From positions 1-36,770 of the IMG/VR virus record IMGVR_UViG_3300011114_000176: DNA of 36,770 nt; one strand, written 5' to 3'. The translations under genes were made by a program, and so were the position numbers. Below the pieces are notes generated by a model. It saw only the letters and a list, made by a program, of their open reading frames with translations, was not told the origin of the DNA and made no database searches. The DNA comes from a virus. Positions 8,348-36,770 of the stretch are shown one piece after another (position 1 is the stretch's first letter; each line of letters begins with the position of its first letter).

Positions 8348-9394
8348 ATGACCACAACAATCAACGCCAGCAATTCGGGGTCAGGCGGCTTAATCCAAAC
8401 CGCAGATGCCTCGGGAGTCCTTGCCCTGCAAACAGCAGGAACCACAGCGGTTACTATCAACGCAAGTCAGAATGTCACTCTAAATAGCACAGGCGCATTG
8501 ACATTACCCAGCGGTACTACTGCACAACAGCCCACAGCAGTGGCTGGGATGATTCGCTACAACTCCACAACGTCTCTTATTGAAGAATATAACGGGACAG
8601 CTTGGGTTGTGCTTATAACGGGTTATTCGGTTAATTATTTAGTAGTCGGTGGTGGCGGAGCAGGGGGTGGGGGATATGCGGGTGGTGGTGGCGCAGGCGG
8701 CTTATTAGCTGGCTCGGGGGTTTCTGTAGTTTCCGGTAGTCCTTATGCCATTACTGTTGGCGCGGGCGGCACTGGAGGCACTGATGTAAATGGAACAAAC
8801 GGAGGAAATTCTGTTTTTTCAGTATATACAGCGACTGGTGGCGGTGGCGGCGGTGGTAGCGGAAACAATGGTTTATCTGGTGGTTCTGGTGGCGGTGGCG
8901 CAGCTAATGGTGGCGGCTCTTCAACTGGCGGGTCGGGAACGTCTGGGCAAGGTTATGCGGGTGGCTCGACCAGCGGTACTTTGGTTACTGGTGGAGGCGG
9001 GGGCGCTGGCGCTGTTGGTGGAAACGGAGTCAGTAGAACTGGTGGAGCAGGTGGTATAGGCGTTTCATCAAGTATTTCCGGTACGGCAACCTATTACGGC
9101 GGTGGTGGTGGAGGTGGCGGGTATACCGGGGCAGGCGGTTATTCTGCTGGTGCTGGTGGTTCTGGTGGCGGTGGAGCAGGCGCACAAAATGCAGTTGGAA
9201 ATGCGGCTACGGCAAATACTGGCGGCGGCGGCGGTGGCGGTGGTGGTGGTTTGTCTACTGCTGGCGGTGCTGGCGGCTCAGGTATTGTCATCATCAGCTA
9301 TGCAGGTAGCCAGCGTGGTACAGGCGGGACCGTGACATCTTCTGGTGGAAACACAATCCACACCTTTACCTCCAGCGGTACATATTCAGCGTAA
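8348..9394 (+). CDS. Glycine-rich tail fibre protein
   Basis: A 348-residue protein. Residues 1-60 match the docking-type N-terminus of the fibre at 7419. Residues about 60-95 contain PTAVAGMIRYNSTTSLIEEY and NGTAWVVL, a widespread phage fibre motif. From YLVVGGGGAGGGGYAGGGG (about residue 97) to about residue 325 the chain is a glycine-rich domain with GGGGxGG runs, typical of the polyglycine type II sandwich found in some phage adhesins and of glycine-rich domains in aquatic phage fibres. It ends with GNTIHTFTSSGTYSA, also typical for the family. Such domains can be hypervariable host-range determinants, as polyglycine adhesins are in T4-like phages (different fold context). The stop at 9394 is followed by AAGGAC for the next gene. 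Confidence 0.8.
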   Translation: MTTTINASNSGSGGLIQTADASGVLALQTAGTTAVTINASQNVTLNSTGALTLPSGTTAQQPTAVAGMIRYNSTTSLIEEYNGTAWVVLITGYSVNYLVVGGGGAGGGGYAGGGGAGGLLAGSGVSVVSGSPYAITVGAGGTGGTDVNGTNGGNSVFSVYTATGGGGGGGSGNNGLSGGSGGGGAANGGGSSTGGSGTSGQGYAGGSTSGTLVTGGGGGAGAVGGNGVSRTGGAGGIGVSSSISGTATYYGGGGGGGGYTGAGGYSAGAGGSGGGGAGAQNAVGNAATANTGGGGGGGGGGLSTAGGAGGSGIVIISYAGSQRGTGGTVTSSGGNTIHTFTSSGTYSA

Positions 9395-18478: not shown

Positions 18479-18606
18479 AATTTGACTGATTCCATAGTTG
18501 AAAAGCGGTGCGTATTGGCGCACTCATAGCGCCGGTAGACCTGATTATCGTATTTGTGCCTAGTCTCTAGCACGCGAGTCCACGCGGAACAAGTGGGGCA
18601 AATCAA
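18409..18606 (-). CDS. Zinc-ribbon protein (NrdR/Ogr-like small phage protein)
   Basis: A 65-residue protein starting at TTG 18606, overlapping the previous stop as TTGA. It has CPTC at residues 3-6 and the motif RRYECANTHRFST (about 26-38), which together make a small zinc-ribbon of the type seen in NrdR N-terminal domains and many small phage proteins; only three Cys and one His are in ligand positions (C3, C6, C30, H34). The C-terminus after residue 42 (LCPTSPRGATKT) is atypical and overlaps another gene in a different frame. A DNA- or nucleic-acid-binding role is plausible. Confidence 0.6.
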   Translation of the reverse strand: MICPTCSAWTRVLETRHKYDNQVYRRYECANTHRFSTMESVKLCPTSPRGATKTLPSLQKSPTPE

Positions 18607-19007
18607 AAATTCTTCTCCTTGAGCTTGGCAATGAGAGCAAGAGCAAATTGATACGTTTCACGGGTTTCGTTGTACCCAACCGTACCGTGTATCTCCTCAT
18701 CCGTCAGCCCTACCCATTCGCGCTGTGGTGGGGTGGTGTAGAGGGGTGTTTCTATCCAAAGCCCGCTATTGCTTTCTGCCCAATTAGTTTTGTGCCGCAA
18801 TAACACCGCCCCTGAGTTATCTGCGGTGCATTGATACATCCACGCCACAGGCTCCTGCTGCGCTGGCTGTGCCAAGGCTTCTTTGATGGCGGTGATGGCT
18901 TTAGGGGCGTTAAGCATTGCCTCTTTGCCGTCATCATTATGCCAATCACAAGTGCCATACAAATTTTCCAACGCCTCAAGCGCTAGCTTCAATGCTTCAC
19001 GTTCCAT
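18603..19007 (-). CDS. Accessory protein with WVGLTDEEI motif, unknown
   Basis: A 134-residue protein. Residues 1-45 form a helix (MEREALKLALEALENLYGTC, later AITAIKEALAQPAQQ), followed by EPVAWMYQC, then PLYTTPPQREWVGLTDEEI (about 90-108) and a C-terminal helix FALALIAKLKEKNF. This architecture (EPVAW core, LYTxPPQRxWVGLTDEEI, helical end) is a common accessory-gene family in phages of Burkholderiales and relatives, function unknown. The gene immediately upstream (18997-19363) is a diverged paralogue, so the pair looks like a tandem duplication. The start overlaps the paralogue's frame-restored end by 11 bp; the stop overlaps the next gene (TTGA). Confidence 0.7.
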   Translation of the reverse strand: MEREALKLALEALENLYGTCDWHNDDGKEAMLNAPKAITAIKEALAQPAQQEPVAWMYQCTADNSGAVLLRHKTNWAESNSGLWIETPLYTTPPQREWVGLTDEEIHGTVGYNETRETYQFALALIAKLKEKNF

Positions 19008-19363
19008 GATTGCGCTCCTTCAATTTAGCTTCAATGGCACGAGCAAAATCTTTAAATCCCGGTGGCAAGCGTCTTGTTTCTGCGTCAACAGAAATCAACG
19101 CATTTTTTTATTTCTTCATCCGTCAGCCCTACCCACGGGCGCTGTGGTGGTGCGGTGTAGAGAGGAATGTCTTTTGAATTTGGAATGCCATCTTCATCAA
19201 CACTTCGTGTCCACCATAGTTCGCCTTTACCTCCATTGGTGATAAACGCCACAGGCTCCTGCAACTTGTCCGCAGCCATTGCTTGCTTAGCCTTAAACCC
19301 ACCGCCCCAATCGCCCTGCCGCTTGGCAAGGTCATCAAAGGCTTCGTCTTCTTCAGTCTTCAT
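18997..19363 (-). pseudogene. Paralogue of the WVGLTDEEI protein, frameshifted at an A7 run
   Basis: The open frame from ATG 19363 to 19085 gives 92 residues ending PPQRPWVGLTDEEIKKCVDF then C and stop. The sequence just downstream, in another frame, continues as DAETRRLPPGFKDFARAIEA then KLKERNHGT, ending at 18997. Removal of one A from the A7 run (minus-strand; T7 at 19103-19109 on plus) fuses the two parts into a 121-residue protein that aligns from end to end with the 134-aa neighbour, including the final (F)AxAIxAKLKE(K/R)N helix. It may be a real pseudogene, a sequencing error in a homopolymer, or expression by slippage. The start overlaps the previous gene as ATGA. Confidence 0.8.
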
Positions 19364-24705: not shown

Positions 24706-26595
24706 ATGCTTTACTGCGATTTTGAAACCCGTAGCGCCTGCGACCTAAAAGTCGCAGGTGTCTATAACTACGCGCAGCACGGCAGCACCGAAGTGCTGTG
24801 TATGTCGTACGCTTTCGATGACGAGGACGTACAGACATGGTTGCCCGACCAGCCGTTCCCGCAATCGGTCGCAGACCATAAGGGCTTGATCTACGCCCAC
24901 AACGCCGCTTTCGAGCGCCTAATTTTTTGGTATGTTCTCCAACAGAACTACCGCCTAGAGCAGTTCTACTGCACCGCAGCACAGGCCCGCGCCAATTGCG
25001 CCCCTGGCTCCCTTGAGGACGTAGGCCGCTTCGCTGGCGCGTCCATGAAGAAAGACCATCGCGGCGCGCAACTGATCCGCAAGATGAGCGTGCCGCCCTA
25101 CGAAGAATCGCCCGAGTTGACCGCCGAGATGGTGGCGTACTGTGAGCAGGACGTGCGGGCCATGCGCGCCATCAGCAAGGCCATGCGGCCATTGTCGGCG
25201 CAGGAGCTACAGGACTACCACGTCAACGAGCGAATCAACGACCGGGGCGTCTTGGTCGACGTGGGCCTATGCCGCGCTGCGGTCAAGTACGCCAGCACCG
25301 AACTGGTTGAGATCCAAGACATCGTGGCCGAGGTCACCGAAGGCGCGATCACCAGCGTGCGCTCACCGAAGATGCGCGATTGGGTGTTCGAGCGCGTGGA
25401 CGACGAGGCCCGCAAGCTGATGCAGAAAGACGGCAAAGTCAGCATCGACAAGACCGTCCGGTTCAATTTACTTAACTGCGATGGAGTGCCCCCCGATGTA
25501 CAAGAAGTCATCCAATGCGCCGACGACCTATGGGCGTCTTCGGTTGCGAAGTTCAGCCGCCTTGCACAGCTATCAGATGAAGAGGATCGACGAGTTCGCG
25601 GCGCTTTTGTGTTCGCAGGGGGTTCCGCAACAGGTCGTGCATCAAGTTATGGCGCTCAAGTCCACAACTTCACCCGAAAATGTGCTGAGGCTCCTGAAGA
25701 TGTGCGCCATGCAATGGTACGTGGCCATGCAATCGTCCCTCGGTACGGCAAGCGAGTCACCGATGTCCTCAAAGGAATGCTCCGTCCTGCACTGATACCG
25801 GCTAAGGGTAAATACCTAGTCGTTGCCGATTGGGCTGCCATCGAAGCTAGGGTAAACCCTTGGTTGTCCGGCAAGGGCGACGCCAAGCTGGCGCTGTTCG
25901 CGTCCGGCGAGGATGTCTACAAAGTCAACGCCGCCGCGACGTTTGGCGTGGCTGTCGCTGCAGTCACTAAAGACCAGCGCCAGATCGGCAAGGTTCAAGA
26001 GTTAGCCTGCGGCTTTGCCGGTGGCGTGGGCGCGTTTGCCGCGATGGGCCGCATTTACGGGATTACCCTACCCGAGTCCGACGCCCGCCGGATGGTGGAC
26101 GGGTGGCGTAGGGCAAACCCTTGGTCTGTGCCCTATTGGCAAGACCTAGAATCCGCGTACACCCGCGCCATGCGGAACAAGGGCAAAGAATTTGGCGCAG
26201 GCCGCGTCACCTATATGTTCGACGGCCAGCACCTTTGGTACGCCCTCCCGTCTGGCCGCGTCTTGTGCTACCCCTACGCCCGTCTCGAATCTGAAGGTAT
26301 TTCTTATGCCAAGGCTGCATGGAAGCCCGCCGCTGACGCTACCGAATGGCCCCGCGCCCGCTTGTGGAAGGGTCTTGCCTGCGAGAACATCACCCAGGCC
26401 GTGGCCAATGACCTGCTGCGCCATTCGTTGCGCCAGCTTGATGACGTGGTTCTCCACGTCCACGATGAAATCGTGATCGAAACCGCAACGCCCGACCCTG
26501 ATGCGCTGCGCTCGATCATGTGCACCCCGCCCGACTGGGCCAAGGGTTTACCCCTAGACGCTGAAGTCTCAATCATGGAGCGATACGGAAAATGA
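24706..26595 (+). CDS. Family A DNA polymerase
   Basis: A 629-residue replicative polymerase from ATG 24706. The first part is a DnaQ-like 3'-5' exonuclease with DFET at residues 5-8 and further YAHNAAFERLIF and YCEQDVRAM motifs (ExoII, ExoIII). The polymerase domain has motif A VVADWAAIEARV (about 371-382), motif B RQIGKVQELACGFAGGVGAF (about 424-443) and motif C LHVHDEIVIE (about 582-591). The organisation matches phage PolA enzymes in the DUF2800-PolA-primase cassette. The frame stays open upstream to TTG 24652, but family members begin at M-L-Y-x-D-F-E-T-R. There is no Shine-Dalgarno sequence at 24706. The stop overlaps the next start (ATGA). Confidence 0.92.
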   Translation: MLYCDFETRSACDLKVAGVYNYAQHGSTEVLCMSYAFDDEDVQTWLPDQPFPQSVADHKGLIYAHNAAFERLIFWYVLQQNYRLEQFYCTAAQARANCAPGSLEDVGRFAGASMKKDHRGAQLIRKMSVPPYEESPELTAEMVAYCEQDVRAMRAISKAMRPLSAQELQDYHVNERINDRGVLVDVGLCRAAVKYASTELVEIQDIVAEVTEGAITSVRSPKMRDWVFERVDDEARKLMQKDGKVSIDKTVRFNLLNCDGVPPDVQEVIQCADDLWASSVAKFSRLAQLSDEEDRRVRGAFVFAGGSATGRASSYGAQVHNFTRKCAEAPEDVRHAMVRGHAIVPRYGKRVTDVLKGMLRPALIPAKGKYLVVADWAAIEARVNPWLSGKGDAKLALFASGEDVYKVNAAATFGVAVAAVTKDQRQIGKVQELACGFAGGVGAFAAMGRIYGITLPESDARRMVDGWRRANPWSVPYWQDLESAYTRAMRNKGKEFGAGRVTYMFDGQHLWYALPSGRVLCYPYARLESEGISYAKAAWKPAADATEWPRARLWKGLACENITQAVANDLLRHSLRQLDDVVLHVHDEIVIETATPDPDALRSIMCTPPDWAKGLPLDAEVSIMERYGK

Positions 26596-28880
26596 CATTT
26601 CTAGACTACTTGGCCAACATAGCGCCCGAGGGCGAGACCATCCTATTCGTGCGGCAGAAGCCAGCTAAGCCAGAGCAATTCCACGCGGACGGCGCGATCA
26701 AATGCTCATGGCCCGCGTACCTGCCCGACAAGTGGAAGGCCGACCAAGCGTGGTACTGCAACACCGGCTGTTTCATCATCGACCGATTCGAGGCCGGTCG
26801 CCCGTCGGCCCGCGCCGATAATTGTGAGCGTGTGGCGTTCCTCGTGCTGGACGACGTGGGCACAAAGGCCAAAGTGCCACCCATCGCCCCGACGTGGATC
26901 ATGGAGACTAGCCCAGACAATTACCAATACGGCTACACCTTCGCCCTAGACGACCAGCCCATGAAGGGCGACTTCGCCGCAGCCATCGTGGCCATTGCCG
27001 ACGCGGGCTACACCGACGGCGGGGCAATCAACCCCGTGCGTAACTTCAGACTCCCCGGCTCCATCAACCTCAAGCCTGGCCGCGACCGCTTTGCGTCCCG
27101 TCTGGTCGAGTTCCACGCCGACCGCGAATTTTCCCTTGACGCCATCTGCGACGCCCTTGGCGTGACCCCGAACCCCGCCGACACCGCGACCGTGCGCCCC
27201 ATCCGGCTTACCGACGACGGCGGCGACGACGTGCTGGCGTGGGCCGCGTCCCGTGGCGACCTGCTGGAGCGTGGCAACGCCGCCGGTTGGTGGGGCGTCG
27301 TGTGCCCCAACAGCGGCGAGCATTCGGACGGCAACCCGATGGGCCGCTATAACCCCGTCAACCGCGCCTATTGCTGCCTGCATGAGCATTGCTCCGAGTG
27401 GGACAGCGAGGCGTACCTCGACTGGGTCGAGCAGCAGGGCGGGCCGTCGCGCGCGCACGGCCTGCGTGACGAGTTGCTGGCCGCTGTCATGGACGGCGCG
27501 CTGTCCAAACTAGCCCCGACGCCCGATTATCCCGACGCCGCCGCCGAGGTTATCGCCGCCGTGGAGCAGCGCGAATTGGGCCGGATTGAGAAATCGCAGT
27601 GGTATGAGCGCTTTGCGTACATCCAAGACGACGACGCCTATTTCGATATGCAAGACCGCCGCGAGTTGTCCCGTGGCACGTTCAACGCCCTGTTCCGCCA
27701 TATCCGCTGCGTGTCCACCCGCGACCAAGGCGGTAAGCGCATGGTCGAGGCGTCGGTATCGTTCGACGAGAACCGGCAGGCCAAGGGCGCAAAAGCGCTG
27801 GTCGGCATCACCTTTGCCGCAGGCGGCTCGGTGCTGGTGGCTCGTGAAGGTTTGGTCTACGGCAACCGCTGGCGCGACGCCCGCCCCGAACCCGTGCCGG
27901 GTGACGTGACCCCGTGGATGCGCCACCTCGAGCGCATGGTGCCTATTGCGTTCGAGCGTGAGCACCTACTCAACGCCCTCGCCCATAAGGTGCAGTTCCC
28001 CGGCCATAAGATCAATCACGCGATCCTCATGGGCGGCGCGCCTGGTAGCGGTAAAGACACCCTTTTCGCCCCGTTCTTTTGGTCGATCGGCGGTAAGGGT
28101 AAGGCGAATTGCTCTCTTGTGAAATCCGAAGATCTGAGTTCACAATGGGGCTACGCCCTTGAATGCGAAGTGATGGAGATAGCCGAACTGCGCCAAACTG
28201 AGGCCCGCGACCGCAGGGCGCTGGAAAATGTCCTAAAACCCATCATTGCCGCCCCGCCCGAGTTGCTTCCCGTGAACCGCAAGGGTTTGCATCCCTACAT
28301 GGCCCTGAACCGCGTGTTTGTGGTGGCATTCTCAAACGAGCGCGCCGCCATATCAATCCCCAGCGAAGATCGCCGGTGGTTCTGCCTATGGGCGGAGGCC
28401 GACCGCCTGCCGGAGGCGGAGGCCGTGGCGCTTTGGAATTGGTACGAGCGCCAAGGCGGGTTCGCTGCGGTGGCCGCGTACCTTAGTTCGCGTGACGTGT
28501 CCGCGTGGAATCCGTCCGCCCCGCCGCCTATGACCGAAGCCAAAGCGATCATGGTCGAACATGGCATGAGCGGCGCAGAATCGTTCCTCGTGAACATGAT
28601 CAGGGGCCGCGCCCGCGCGTTTGCCGGTGGCGTGATCGGCGCGCCTTTTTTCGCGATCTGCGACGAACTACAGCATTTCGCCCCGCCTGGGGTTAAGATT
28701 GTCCCCGCAGCGCTTATGCACGCATTGAAGGAGGCCGGATGGATCGATATGGGCCGCCTCGCGTCTCGCGAGTATCAAACCAAAAAGCATATTTTTTGCG
28801 CGCCTGACATGGCCGACAGATGCACCCGCTCCGAACTGCGCCGCGCAATAGAAAAAGCCCCCGAAGGGGCTGGGCTATAA
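26592..28880 (+). CDS. Primase-polymerase fused to SF3-type helicase
   Basis: A 762-residue multidomain replication protein. The N-terminal 200 residues look like an archaeo-eukaryotic primase (AEP) domain: VAFLVLDDVG (about 81-90) as the metal-binding Asp motif and NFRLPGSINLKPGR (about 150-163), the Arg/PGSxNxK motif of RepB- and prim-pol-type AEPs. A Cys/His group follows (CPNSGEHSDG, YCCLHEHC, about 238-266), possibly a zinc site. The C-terminal half carries a P-loop GGAPGSGKDTLF (about 480-491), EVMEIAELR as Walker B-like, and FVVAFSNERAAISIPSEDRR as the SF3 sensor/arginine region, typical of DUF5906/NrS-1-type or VirE-type helicases. It is coupled to the polymerase gene. Confidence 0.85.
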   Translation: MTFLDYLANIAPEGETILFVRQKPAKPEQFHADGAIKCSWPAYLPDKWKADQAWYCNTGCFIIDRFEAGRPSARADNCERVAFLVLDDVGTKAKVPPIAPTWIMETSPDNYQYGYTFALDDQPMKGDFAAAIVAIADAGYTDGGAINPVRNFRLPGSINLKPGRDRFASRLVEFHADREFSLDAICDALGVTPNPADTATVRPIRLTDDGGDDVLAWAASRGDLLERGNAAGWWGVVCPNSGEHSDGNPMGRYNPVNRAYCCLHEHCSEWDSEAYLDWVEQQGGPSRAHGLRDELLAAVMDGALSKLAPTPDYPDAAAEVIAAVEQRELGRIEKSQWYERFAYIQDDDAYFDMQDRRELSRGTFNALFRHIRCVSTRDQGGKRMVEASVSFDENRQAKGAKALVGITFAAGGSVLVAREGLVYGNRWRDARPEPVPGDVTPWMRHLERMVPIAFEREHLLNALAHKVQFPGHKINHAILMGGAPGSGKDTLFAPFFWSIGGKGKANCSLVKSEDLSSQWGYALECEVMEIAELRQTEARDRRALENVLKPIIAAPPELLPVNRKGLHPYMALNRVFVVAFSNERAAISIPSEDRRWFCLWAEADRLPEAEAVALWNWYERQGGFAAVAAYLSSRDVSAWNPSAPPPMTEAKAIMVEHGMSGAESFLVNMIRGRARAFAGGVIGAPFFAICDELQHFAPPGVKIVPAALMHALKEAGWIDMGRLASREYQTKKHIFCAPDMADRCTRSELRRAIEKAPEGAGL
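28852..28871 (-). terminator. Rho-independent terminator of the leftward clamp operon
   Basis: On the minus strand AGCCCC-TTCG-GGGGCT is followed by T5 (plus-strand A5 at 28852-28856). The hairpin (28856-28871) lies within the last codons of the rightward primase gene and three bases beyond the stop of the last leftward peptide at 28875. It is a strong UUCG-loop terminator leftward; rightward it has no T-run. It separates the two convergent operons. Confidence 0.85.
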
Positions 28881-29714: not shown

Positions 29715-30287
29715 TTAGCAGGTGCCGACCCAAGGCGCGACCGGATTAGACCCGCCGCCGCGCACGGGCATCACAAAAACTTGCAGATCATCATCTATCG
29801 CGCAATGCCCGACGCTAGTGCCGTTCTGCGCGACATGGTACAGGGCAGACTTGTTGCCGTGATATTCGCCCGCCGCTTTCTGCACGGTCGCCAAATAGTC
29901 AGGGTTGAAGTAAGCCTGTTCGCCAGTCTGAGGCGCGCGGATCACGCGACGCCAGTCCGGATAGCGGCCGTCGACGGCCTGGACCGTCACTTCGCTCGCG
30001 CCGGTCTTAATCGTCACCTTAGCGCCGTCGACATCGAGCGTTATGAAATCCAATTTGTTGCCCTTGATAGCGGCGCTCAAGTGATCCGATCCAACTATGA
30101 CGCTCGCCGGGGCTTGCGCCTGGGTGTTGATACGGGCGACGGCGAGAAAATGGCCGTTAGTGGCCACTGCAAAAGTGCCGGTCTCGCCCTGTTCGATATG
30201 CACGCCTTGCAGATAATAGCGAATGTCTTTCTTAGCGGCGAAGTGCAGCAGGGCCTTGATTGTTTTGATCTGAATTGATACTTGCAT
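29715..30287 (-). CDS. Half-size DNA polymerase beta-clamp-like protein
   Basis: A 190-residue protein from ATG 30287, placed directly behind the shared leader CTAAACTGGAGT; the in-frame ATG at 30317 lies upstream of that leader and is rejected. The features recall bacterial DnaN domains: RYYLQGVHIEQGETGTFAVA followed by TNGHFLAVARI, the ATDGHRLA-type motif, and VDGRYPDWRRVI, the GRFPDYxRVIP motif, then the helical FNPDYLATVQKA. Bacterial DnaN has about 366 residues in three domains; this length would hold about one and a half. It may form a higher-order ring or bind the phage polymerase. The call is from motif recognition. Confidence 0.72.
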   Translation of the reverse strand: MQVSIQIKTIKALLHFAAKKDIRYYLQGVHIEQGETGTFAVATNGHFLAVARINTQAQAPASVIVGSDHLSAAIKGNKLDFITLDVDGAKVTIKTGASEVTVQAVDGRYPDWRRVIRAPQTGEQAYFNPDYLATVQKAAGEYHGNKSALYHVAQNGTSVGHCAIDDDLQVFVMPVRGGGSNPVAPWVGTC

Positions 30288-30295
30288 GATAGTGA

Positions 30296-30351
30296 ACTCC
30301 AGTTTAGTAAACGCCATGTCAGCGCCCTTGCATTGTAAGCGATCTCCTTAC
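30296..30351 (-). promoter_or_regulatory. Leader module C: hairpin plus CTAAACTGGAGT
   Basis: In minus orientation, GTAAG-GAGATCG-CTTAC (30351-30335) is followed by CTAAACTGGAGT (30307-30296), then TTCACTATC and ATG 30287. The stem is shorter (5 bp) than in modules A and B but keeps the outer GTAAG/CTTAC. This is the first copy in the operon, near its promoter region. Confidence 0.68.
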
Positions 30352-30612
30352 AGTTGCACAAGCCCCTAAATACACTCTTTAGTTGCGATTTTCACTTATT
30401 TTTGTGGGTCATGCATAGCCAACAATAGCCAACAAATGCGGCCTGGTAGCCAACATGGCCAGCGCGCCAGTAAATTGGCGGCCAATTTGTTGGCGCTGTT
30501 GGCTATTGTGTTGGCGGTGATGTTGGCTATCTAGAAAATGCATTCCGCCATAGGGAAACCGGCCCGCTGTTGGCTATATTGTCATTGATTAGATAGTTTA
30601 TGAAAAATCTAA

Positions 30613-30639
30613 AATATACTGTATAAATATACAGGTAAA
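30613..30639 (-). promoter_or_regulatory. Candidate leftward promoter of the clamp operon overlapping the LexA-like box
   Basis: On the minus strand, TTTACC (30639-30634, four of six to -35) and TATATT (30618-30613, five of six to -10) are separated by 15 bp that are occupied by the LexA-like palindrome. The geometry fits an operator between -35 and -10. Spacing is short, so the promoter is tentative. Transcription would leave a leader of about 315 nt before ATG 30287, carrying the left iterons and module C. Confidence 0.4.
30617..30636. promoter_or_regulatory. LexA (SOS)-like operator
   Basis: TACTGTATAAATATACAGGT contains the perfect 16-bp palindrome CTGTATAAATATACAG (30619-30634), matching the E. 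coli LexA consensus CTGT-N8-ACAG with an all-A/T centre and the usual flanking TA on the left. It lies in the AT-rich core of the iteron region. No phage lexA or repressor gene is seen, so host LexA would be the binder. Confidence 0.7.
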
Positions 30640-30891
30640 TAGTTGTATGGGCCATGAGTGCGCGTTGGCACTGACAATTTAGCCAACATAGCCAACAGCA
30701 TCATGCAACATGGCCGCGCGCCAGGGCGCGCAGATGTTGGCAATGTTGGCTATCAAAAAACAATAGCCAACATAGCCAACATGATCGGAGCGCGCGGCCC
30801 TCTTCGGTTGGCATAGCCAACATGGCCAACATGGTTTGTTGCTTGCACGAACTAAGGATGCGGGCCGGTGGCCAGGCGGCGGATGGCTCGA

Positions 30892-30908
30892 GGGGGAGGG
30901 GGGGAGGG
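30892..30908 (+). other. G-run, possible G-quadruplex
   Basis: GGGGGAGGGGGGGAGGG offers four G-tracts of three with single-base or short loops on the plus strand. It is the only run of this type in the window and lies between the iteron region and the packaging genes. Confidence 0.5.
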
Positions 30909-30937
30909 CCGACGCAAGGGGCCAACGGAAACGGAGG

Positions 30938-30965
30938 CTTCACGCACAAATTTTTTTAATATAAA
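30938..30965 (+). promoter_or_regulatory. Weak candidate promoter for the packaging and late genes
   Basis: TATAAA (30960-30965) lies in an AT-rich stretch 34 nt before ATG 30999, with CTTCAC (30938-30943) as a poor -35. AGGAG at 30989-30993 is the ribosome site. The first gene of the late block must have a promoter upstream, and this is the best AT-rich site in the non-coding region near it; the match is weak. Confidence 0.3.
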
Positions 30966-30998
30966 ATTCATGTACACGCCCCCGGCGCAGGAGAACCA

Positions 30999-31436
30999 AT
31001 GTTCCAATCACTGCCACTGACCATACGCAAAGTCGAAGCGACTGAGTCGCGCTTGCAGTCCATCTACGACGCCGCCAAGCTAGGACTCAAAGGCGACACG
31101 CTTGCCCTGGCGTCAGGGATGCGACCCGATGAGTACCGCCAACTATGCCAACTTGACCCACTGGCCGAAATGGCCGCGATCAAAGGCAAAGCTGACGGCG
31201 AGCGCGAGATGGCCAACATCCTGCACAACGCTGCGCGCGAGGGCGACGCCAAGGCGGCGCTGGAAATCCTCAAGCATCAACACGGCTGGGTGGCCAAGCA
31301 ATCCATCTCAGTTGACATCGACCAACGCATATCCATCACGCAAGCGCTGCATGATGCAGAATTGCGGGTAATTGATGTTGAGGCTTTAGAATCCACGCAT
31401 TCTGTTAAGGATGTTGAACATGGCCGAATCCGCTAA
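30999..31436 (+). CDS. Probable terminase small subunit
   Basis: A 145-residue helical protein from ATG 30999 behind AGGAG. It begins MFQSLPLTIRKVEATESRLQ and has a helix-turn-helix-like part, AAKLGLKGDTLALASGMRPD followed by EYRQLCQLDPLAEMAAIKGK, then a helical segment AKAALEILKHQHGWVAKQ and an acidic end. The HTH near residues 25-55 and the position two genes before the large terminase subunit fit a small subunit that recognises pac-type DNA. In P22-like phages pac lies within this gene. The call is from order and motif; the family is not proved. Confidence 0.68.
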   Translation: MFQSLPLTIRKVEATESRLQSIYDAAKLGLKGDTLALASGMRPDEYRQLCQLDPLAEMAAIKGKADGEREMANILHNAAREGDAKAALEILKHQHGWVAKQSISVDIDQRISITQALHDAELRVIDVEALESTHSVKDVEHGRIR

Positions 31437-36475: not shown

Positions 36476-36770
36476 ATGGAATCAAAAATGTCAGAAGAAA
36501 ACCTAGCGGTAGTTGACCCCGCGCCGGAACCGATTGCAACGGCTGTATCGGAACCCGAAGTTAATGCGCCGGAAGTAGCTGAAGAACAGCAATCTAAGAC
36601 TTTCACTCAGGAAGAATTGGACGCTGCAATTGGCAAACGCTTGGCAAGAGAGCAAAGGAAATGGGAACGGGAACAAGCGCAACGCGCTGCGGAAACGCAG
36701 ACGTTAAGAGCCGCGCCGGTTCAGTCTGTTGATCAATTTGAAAGCACGGAGGCTTACGCCGACGCGCTGG
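36476..36770 (+). CDS. Scaffolding protein, N-terminal part (continues at base 1)
   Basis: From ATG 36476 (AGGGA six bases before it; a second in-frame ATG is at 36488) the first 98 codons read MESKMSEENLAVVDPAPEPI, an acidic Pro/Glu-rich lead, then FTQEELDAAIGKRLAREQRK and WEREQAQRAAETQ, a charged helix. This EExDAxIxxRLARERxKW motif is typical of phage scaffold proteins from many tailed phages. The sequence stops at the window edge in frame with base 3 of the window, giving about 261 residues in total. Confidence 0.8.
   Translation, partial: MESKMSEENLAVVDPAPEPIATAVSEPEVNAPEVAEEQQSKTFTQEELDAAIGKRLAREQRKWEREQAQRAAETQTLRAAPVQSVDQFESTEAYADAL
36645..36770. repeat. Terminal direct repeat, right copy
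   Basis: Identical to bases 1-126 and lies inside the scaffold gene. It marks closure of the circular assembly. Confidence 0.95.

Follow-up and report, generated by a model that had tools for sequence, protein, structure and literature searches.

Where does DNA replication begin in an uncultured tailed phage, and which of its proteins recognizes that site? The question is raised by a cluster of short repeats in a virus contig of 36,770 nt (IMG/VR record IMGVR_UViG_3300011114_000176; the whole stretch is referred to below as the window), which stems from an uncultured virus of bacteria, a self-sufficient tailed phage. The ends of the record are an exact 126-bp direct repeat (1-126 and 36645-36770), and the genome is therefore closed, or circular, in the assembly, with a length of 36,644 bp. 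An earlier note on this DNA had read the cluster as the phage origin. Comparison with relatives supports this proposal, in that the array has the appearance of an iteron origin, and we assign a probability of about 0.82 to the hypothesis that it is a replication origin, bound by the C-terminal wing of the phage primase-helicase and melted at an AT-rich core. Replication has not been mapped, and there are no replication or binding data.

The 8-mer AGCCAACA is found twelve times without mismatch within 406 bp, flanking the AT-rich core, with eight copies on the plus strand (30417, 30427, 30448, 30681, 30690, 30765, 30774 and 30815) and four on the minus strand (30497, 30521, 30568 and 30744), all at the positions given in the earlier note. 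Equal frequency elsewhere, which would have spoken against an origin, is not seen: outside the array there are just two copies (1363 and 12556), and the total of 14 in the window compares with 1.74 expected (sd 1.38) and a maximum of 6 among 100 shuffles. The relaxed word GCCAACA adds four copies (30488, 30509 and 30735 on the minus strand, 30825 on the plus strand), and 16 of its 29 copies in the window fall inside 30417-30831. The tandem pairs at 9-10 bp and the AT-rich stretch that had been described are likewise borne out; one pair has a spacing of 10 bp and several have 9 bp, and the GC content of the core compares with ~51-53% in the surrounding kilobase windows. A search of the window found one array in the genome. 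The region is organized as follows:

30417-30434, plus strand: left iteron pair, AGCCAACA at 30417 and 30427, 10-bp spacing
30448-30455, plus strand: iteron AGCCAACA
30488-30528, minus strand: four iterons, those at 30497 and 30521 exact, those at 30488 and 30509 GCCAACA variants
30568-30575, minus strand: innermost left iteron, at the edge of the AT core
30576-30650, no strand: AT-rich core, proposed unwinding element; the lowest 60-bp stretch between the iterons has 18% GC
30619-30634, no strand: LexA-box-like dyad CTGTATAAATATACAG, a perfect CTGTN8ACAG inside the AT core
30681-30697, plus strand: right iteron pair, 9-bp spacing
30735-30751, minus strand: iteron pair, forming a 20-nt inverted repeat (95%) with 30763-30782
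30765-30781, plus strand: right iteron pair, 9-bp spacing
30815-30831, plus strand: right-most iteron pair, exact at 30815, then GGCCAACA
30884-30968, plus strand: G-rich box, then an A/T run, immediately upstream of terS, conserved over the group

No credible gene overlaps the array, in agreement with the ~400 bp without a gene that had been claimed, and Rfam and tRNA scans were empty. To the left lies a clamp-like gene whose product has a DNA polymerase III beta-like domain (29715-30317; Pfam E 1.2e-10); it is on the minus strand, and the array thus lies between divergent genes. Further upstream, the plus strand encodes a PD-(D/E)XK nuclease, a family A (PolA-type) polymerase and a 762-aa protein. 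To the right, the array ends ~170 bp before the gene in the terS position, which is followed by terL and portal genes. The product of 30999-31436 is taken as TerS from its position and from the annotation of the gene at the same position in the relative DSL-LC05; the pairwise match is weak, and searches of this product against Pfam and PHROGs returned nothing. The location between a clamp-like operon and the packaging genes, as stated in the earlier note, therefore stands in position, with the refinement that the clamp-like gene is on the minus strand and accessory: it is present in 7 of 308 loci, and the array is conserved without it. GC skew was one of the checks that had been suggested, and it gave no support for an origin at the array. 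It was uninformative, with its clear extreme at 8.6 kb, within a glycine-rich gene (8348-9394), and was dropped as origin evidence. Elsewhere in the window, two adjacent small minus-strand genes (18603-19363) have the motif PLYT.PPQR.WVGLTDEEI in common, and 44 bp in this segment match the otherwise unrelated phage MW202879 at 95%.

Scans of viral contigs yielded several hundred relatives, and most of them carry an array at the same place, upstream of the terS-position gene. Between the end of the gene for the primase-polymerase (prim-pol, the 762-aa protein in the window) and the start of terS, the relatives have 1.7-4.2 kb, with minus-strand genes in between. Within 900 bp upstream of terS, tandem 9-bp pairs have a density of 3.03 per kb, compared with 0.17 per kb elsewhere (120 loci). 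Each array is built mainly from one 8-bp word, with 9 bp as the commonest spacing, and the word differs by lineage (AGCCAACA, TGTCCACA, AGCCCACA, TGCCGACA, TGACCCA(C/A)A, TGACTCACA, TGCTTACA and others). In all 122 dereplicated genomes whose array could be called, iterons are present on both sides of an AT-rich core, which has a median GC content of 25% in loci of 55% GC. The inner iterons are usually inverted: the nearest left copy is on the minus strand in 102 of the 122 genomes, and the nearest right copy on the plus strand in 112. The comparison of these loci demonstrates that position and architecture of the array are conserved and that the words are lineage-specific; the absence of an array at this place in relatives, which the earlier note had named as refuting, is not observed. 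A more distant relative, MW202483 (prim-pol 48.6% identical), has an array of the word GTTTACA at the same place. It also encodes a stand-alone DnaA C-terminal helix-turn-helix protein (L313:7083-7379; Pfam E 1.1e-17), and a protein of this type was not found in the window. In one clade (L030, L032, L039 and L041), a second palindromic family, TAAGTTAGT...ACTAACTTA, is present in ~10 copies beside the iterons upstream of terS.

Which protein changes along with the word was determined in 96 dereplicated genomes by predicting the word from the nearest neighbour in one protein segment, with close relatives excluded. Whole-protein distance correlations were dominated by shared ancestry and were replaced by this leave-out prediction and by independent pairs. 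Prim-pol windows within residues 681-762 gave the right word in 0.52-0.76 of cases, where chance is ~0.2. Other windows of the protein reached at most 0.63 (661-720), with lower values away from the C-terminus, and windows in the rest of prim-pol, TerS and TerL mostly gave 0.1-0.45 (TerS at most 0.40, TerL at most 0.35). Judged from this comparison, the word is predicted by the last ~80 residues of the 762-aa primase-helicase, and not by TerS or TerL. The protein encoded at 26592, which had been put forward as the initiator, is thus the most likely binder, with a word that tracks its C-terminal domain, in the absence of binding data. A small protein encoded between prim-pol and terS in all genomes was considered as the binder and rejected, because no such protein exists (the largest cluster has members in 51 of 106 genomes); among the small proteins scanned from this interval, no convincing Pfam match was found.

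The relevant parts of the proposed initiator are:

26592-28880, plus strand: initiator, 762 aa, with an AEP primase-polymerase domain (~2-190), an SF3/D5-type helicase (~410-660) and a C-terminal winged helix
28557-28877, plus strand: C-terminal winged-helix domain (codons 656-762), which tracks the iteron word
28743-28799, plus strand: wing hairpin (codons 718-736), with residues 723, 724, 726 and 729 strongly associated with the word

Column by column, residues 729 and 742 gave the strongest association with the word, and 724 and 727 were also high; among the prim-pol, TerS and TerL columns tested, the top seven are all in prim-pol 723-748. The residue for each column was picked on the same data, and the argument is the clustering of the matches rather than any single value. 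K724 together with D or E at 729 is found in 70 genomes, and 63 of these have a TGTCCACA-type word. All 63 TGTCCACA-type genomes carry the pair, and the word is absent from the 121 genomes without it. On a tree built from prim-pol residues 1-640, which leaves out the C-terminal domain, the word changed at least 32 times, and 12 phylogenetically independent pairs differ in the TGTCCACA word; the K/D combination agrees with the difference in 9-10 of them and opposes it in none (p ~0.004). In held-out genomes, fetched afterwards, the TGTCCACA word was present in 7 of 9 with K/D versus 0 of 14 others (Fisher p 1.5e-4). Two proteins that are 95% identical illustrate the switch, L153 having AGCCAACA with LASRGYQTKKH and L154 TGTCCACA with LKSRRYDTKKH. 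The pattern extends to an independent collection, where a contig binned with a Rhodoferax MAG (L443) combines a K + D wing with ten GTCC words, and L439 combines a TRKH wing with GCTT words, as in L125, L126 and L136. The association of word and wing is in this way demonstrated at the level of comparison, and exceptions exist. L090 and L095 have a C-terminal domain nearly that of L091, L100 and L103, yet other dominant words; ACCCAC is dominant in the held-out exceptions L325 and L332; and seven K724/D729 genomes were called with other words. In those of the seven that were inspected, a ACTAACTT family inflates the call while TGTCCAC sites persist. The pattern class used in word calling was defined after the arrays had been inspected, and the ACTAACTT repeats disturb the calling in one clade.

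The C-terminal 123 residues are predicted to form a winged helix (pLDDT 83). In the model, residues 724 and 729 belong to the loop connecting wing strands 718-723 and 732-736, which would place the word-linked residues 723, 724 and 729 in or beside the wing loop. The fold matches of this domain are generic winged helices with Z of ~4-5.5, including residues 617-718 of the NrS-1 polymerase, and a sequence search of the domain against solved structures gave nothing credible. The full-length model is weak (pLDDT 68, pTM 0.35). Its top structural match is the helicase and C-terminal region of NrS-1 (335-738, Z 15.6), and the SaPI primase-helicases SaPI5 (7ola, Z 11.3; 7om0) and PriRep1 (7pds, Z 9.5) are also among the matches. 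The N-terminal AEP domain, modelled with moderate confidence, matches the S-2L PrimPol (6zp9) over 2-190 with Z 14.0 (163 residues at 3.4 Å). Independently of the model, a sequence profile matches the NrS-1 helicase over 458-660 (E 1.3e-11), and the requirement that the protein contain a D5/SF3-type helicase related to the C-terminal region of NrS-1 is met.

Among known systems, the SaPI/PICI satellites resemble the phage in having an initiator helicase with C-terminal origin recognition and, as in SaPI5 Rep, a fused primase (PMC7581432), as well as two groups of several short iterons, one on either side of an AT-rich region (PMC7581432; PMC6092414); PICI origins always have two iteron sets around such a region (PMC6092414). 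The satellite origin lies directly 3' of rep, whereas the tailed phage, which is self-sufficient, has a leftward gene cluster in between and its proposed origin next to the terminase genes. The modelled likeness to the SaPI Rep family is structural only, and membership by sequence is not demonstrated. NrS-1, the best helicase match, has the same order of AEP domain, helicase and C-terminal region, and its 8-nt recognition site TTTGGTTA (PMC8718748) is identical at 6 of 8 positions to GTTGGCTA, the iteron complement, which may be chance. In contrast to the 16 iterons around an AT core in the phage, NrS-1 has two sites only, recognized on the template in primer synthesis (PMC7102993), and the phage additionally carries a PolA-type polymerase. 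The NrS-1-like start envisaged in the earlier note thus holds in that the same protein is the likely binder, but not in its mode of recognition, because specificity tracks the C-terminal winged helix and not template recognition by the prim-pol. In the satellite PLE of Vibrio cholerae, RepA and the origin covary, and replication is restricted to cognate pairs (PMC8263062). PLE has three semi-palindromic iterons of ~30 bp and an N-terminal RepA_N binding domain, whereas the 8-bp words of the phage change base by base along with wing residues. The alpha protein of the satellite phage P4, with ori1/crr, combines a primase, an SF3 helicase and a C-terminal winged-helix origin binder on short iterons; its domain is absent among the fold matches listed, which proves nothing.

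The place of the array also suggests a pac or cos site, to which the small terminase, the product of a gene just downstream, would bind. Packaging sites are frequently located next to terS, the array is near terS in the relatives as in the window, and the portal matches a family annotated as P22-like in a relative. We nevertheless consider this reading very unlikely. When close relatives are excluded, the word inferred from TerS similarity is correct in only 0.14-0.31 of cases (thresholds 0.10-0.25) against a base of ~0.2. Among distant genomes, the repeat thus covaries with TerS little more than expected by chance, and the top-ranked columns include none from TerS or TerL. Moreover, DSL-LC05 keeps TerL (68%) and portal (77%) with a different repeat at the place of the array, the palindrome CCCACTGGG instead of the words of the window group. 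A homologue of the window primase-helicase was not found there in the ~22 kb searched, which cover the annotated primase/polymerase. A separate conserved element, the G-rich box at 30884-30968, stands between array and terS and is a candidate packaging site or late promoter. DSL-LC05 has a similar box before terS despite its other replication module and other repeat. The region therefore seems to be divided, with the box belonging to the packaging or late functions and the array to the initiator. The DSL-LC05 locus (L449:3600-4130) has several palindromic ACCCACTGGGT-like copies, and the phage has a different primase/polymerase and a family B polymerase; its repeats may represent the origin of another replicon that occupies this genomic position.

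An operator, at which the winged helix of the initiator or another factor switches between leftward and rightward late transcription without any origin, would fit the divergent genes on either side and the promoter-like and LexA-like elements. Such a role is compatible with that of an origin; as the sole explanation it appears improbable, given that the covarying protein is a primase-helicase, that two iteron sets around an AT-rich core are the published layout of PICI origins (PMC6092414), and that the promoter-like matches barely exceed those in shuffles (3 versus 1.1). Hardly tenable are selfish or structural repeats (REP-like hairpins) with no cognate phage protein: several arms could form hairpins and some relatives have the further palindromic repeat ACTAACTT, but the fixed position, the preferred inner orientation and the link to one protein segment are unexpected for REP-like repeats, and the genome of the window has a single array. 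The origin, as we read the array, meets the expectations of repeats far above chance, an AT core flanked on both sides and a covarying DNA-binding domain in the initiator; a location immediately 3' of rep is the expectation that it does not meet.

The core dyad is not confined to the window. A perfect CTGTN8ACAG is present in 25 of 146 array regions (for instance L086, L174, L232 and L219), compared with 0.2% of control regions. This is the form of the LexA/SOS box of enterobacteria, and the dyad may link origin or promoter activity to the SOS response.

We hypothesize that copies of the primase-helicase bind the 8-bp iterons on either side of the core through the C-terminal winged helix, with the wing hairpin (718-736), above all residues 723, 724 and 729, reading those bases of the word that vary. 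The inner iterons, being inverted, would load a pair of helicase rings face to face, the AT core would melt, and the fused primase-polymerase domain would prime synthesis for extension by the PolA-type polymerase. Direct binding, ring loading, melting, priming and origin activity are all inferred. We further speculate, at somewhat short of even odds, that residues 723, 724 and 729 suffice to reprogramme origin specificity, that populations have switched many times, leaving a readable code of protein-DNA recognition and, within a single phage lineage, numerous origin types incompatible with one another, and that the LexA-box-like dyad in some lineages may tie firing to the host SOS response.

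The analysis identifies where replication probably starts in a common group of tailed phages and keeps this site apart from the packaging site. For hundreds of uncultured phages, sequence alone suffices to pair initiator and origin, and the independent switches are numerous enough to single out individual residues; the long-standing question of how initiators and origins change their specificity in concert is made directly testable. The driving force behind origin switching may be competitors or parasites with origins as their targets, as demonstrated for the satellite PLE and the phage nuclease Odn (PMC8263062).
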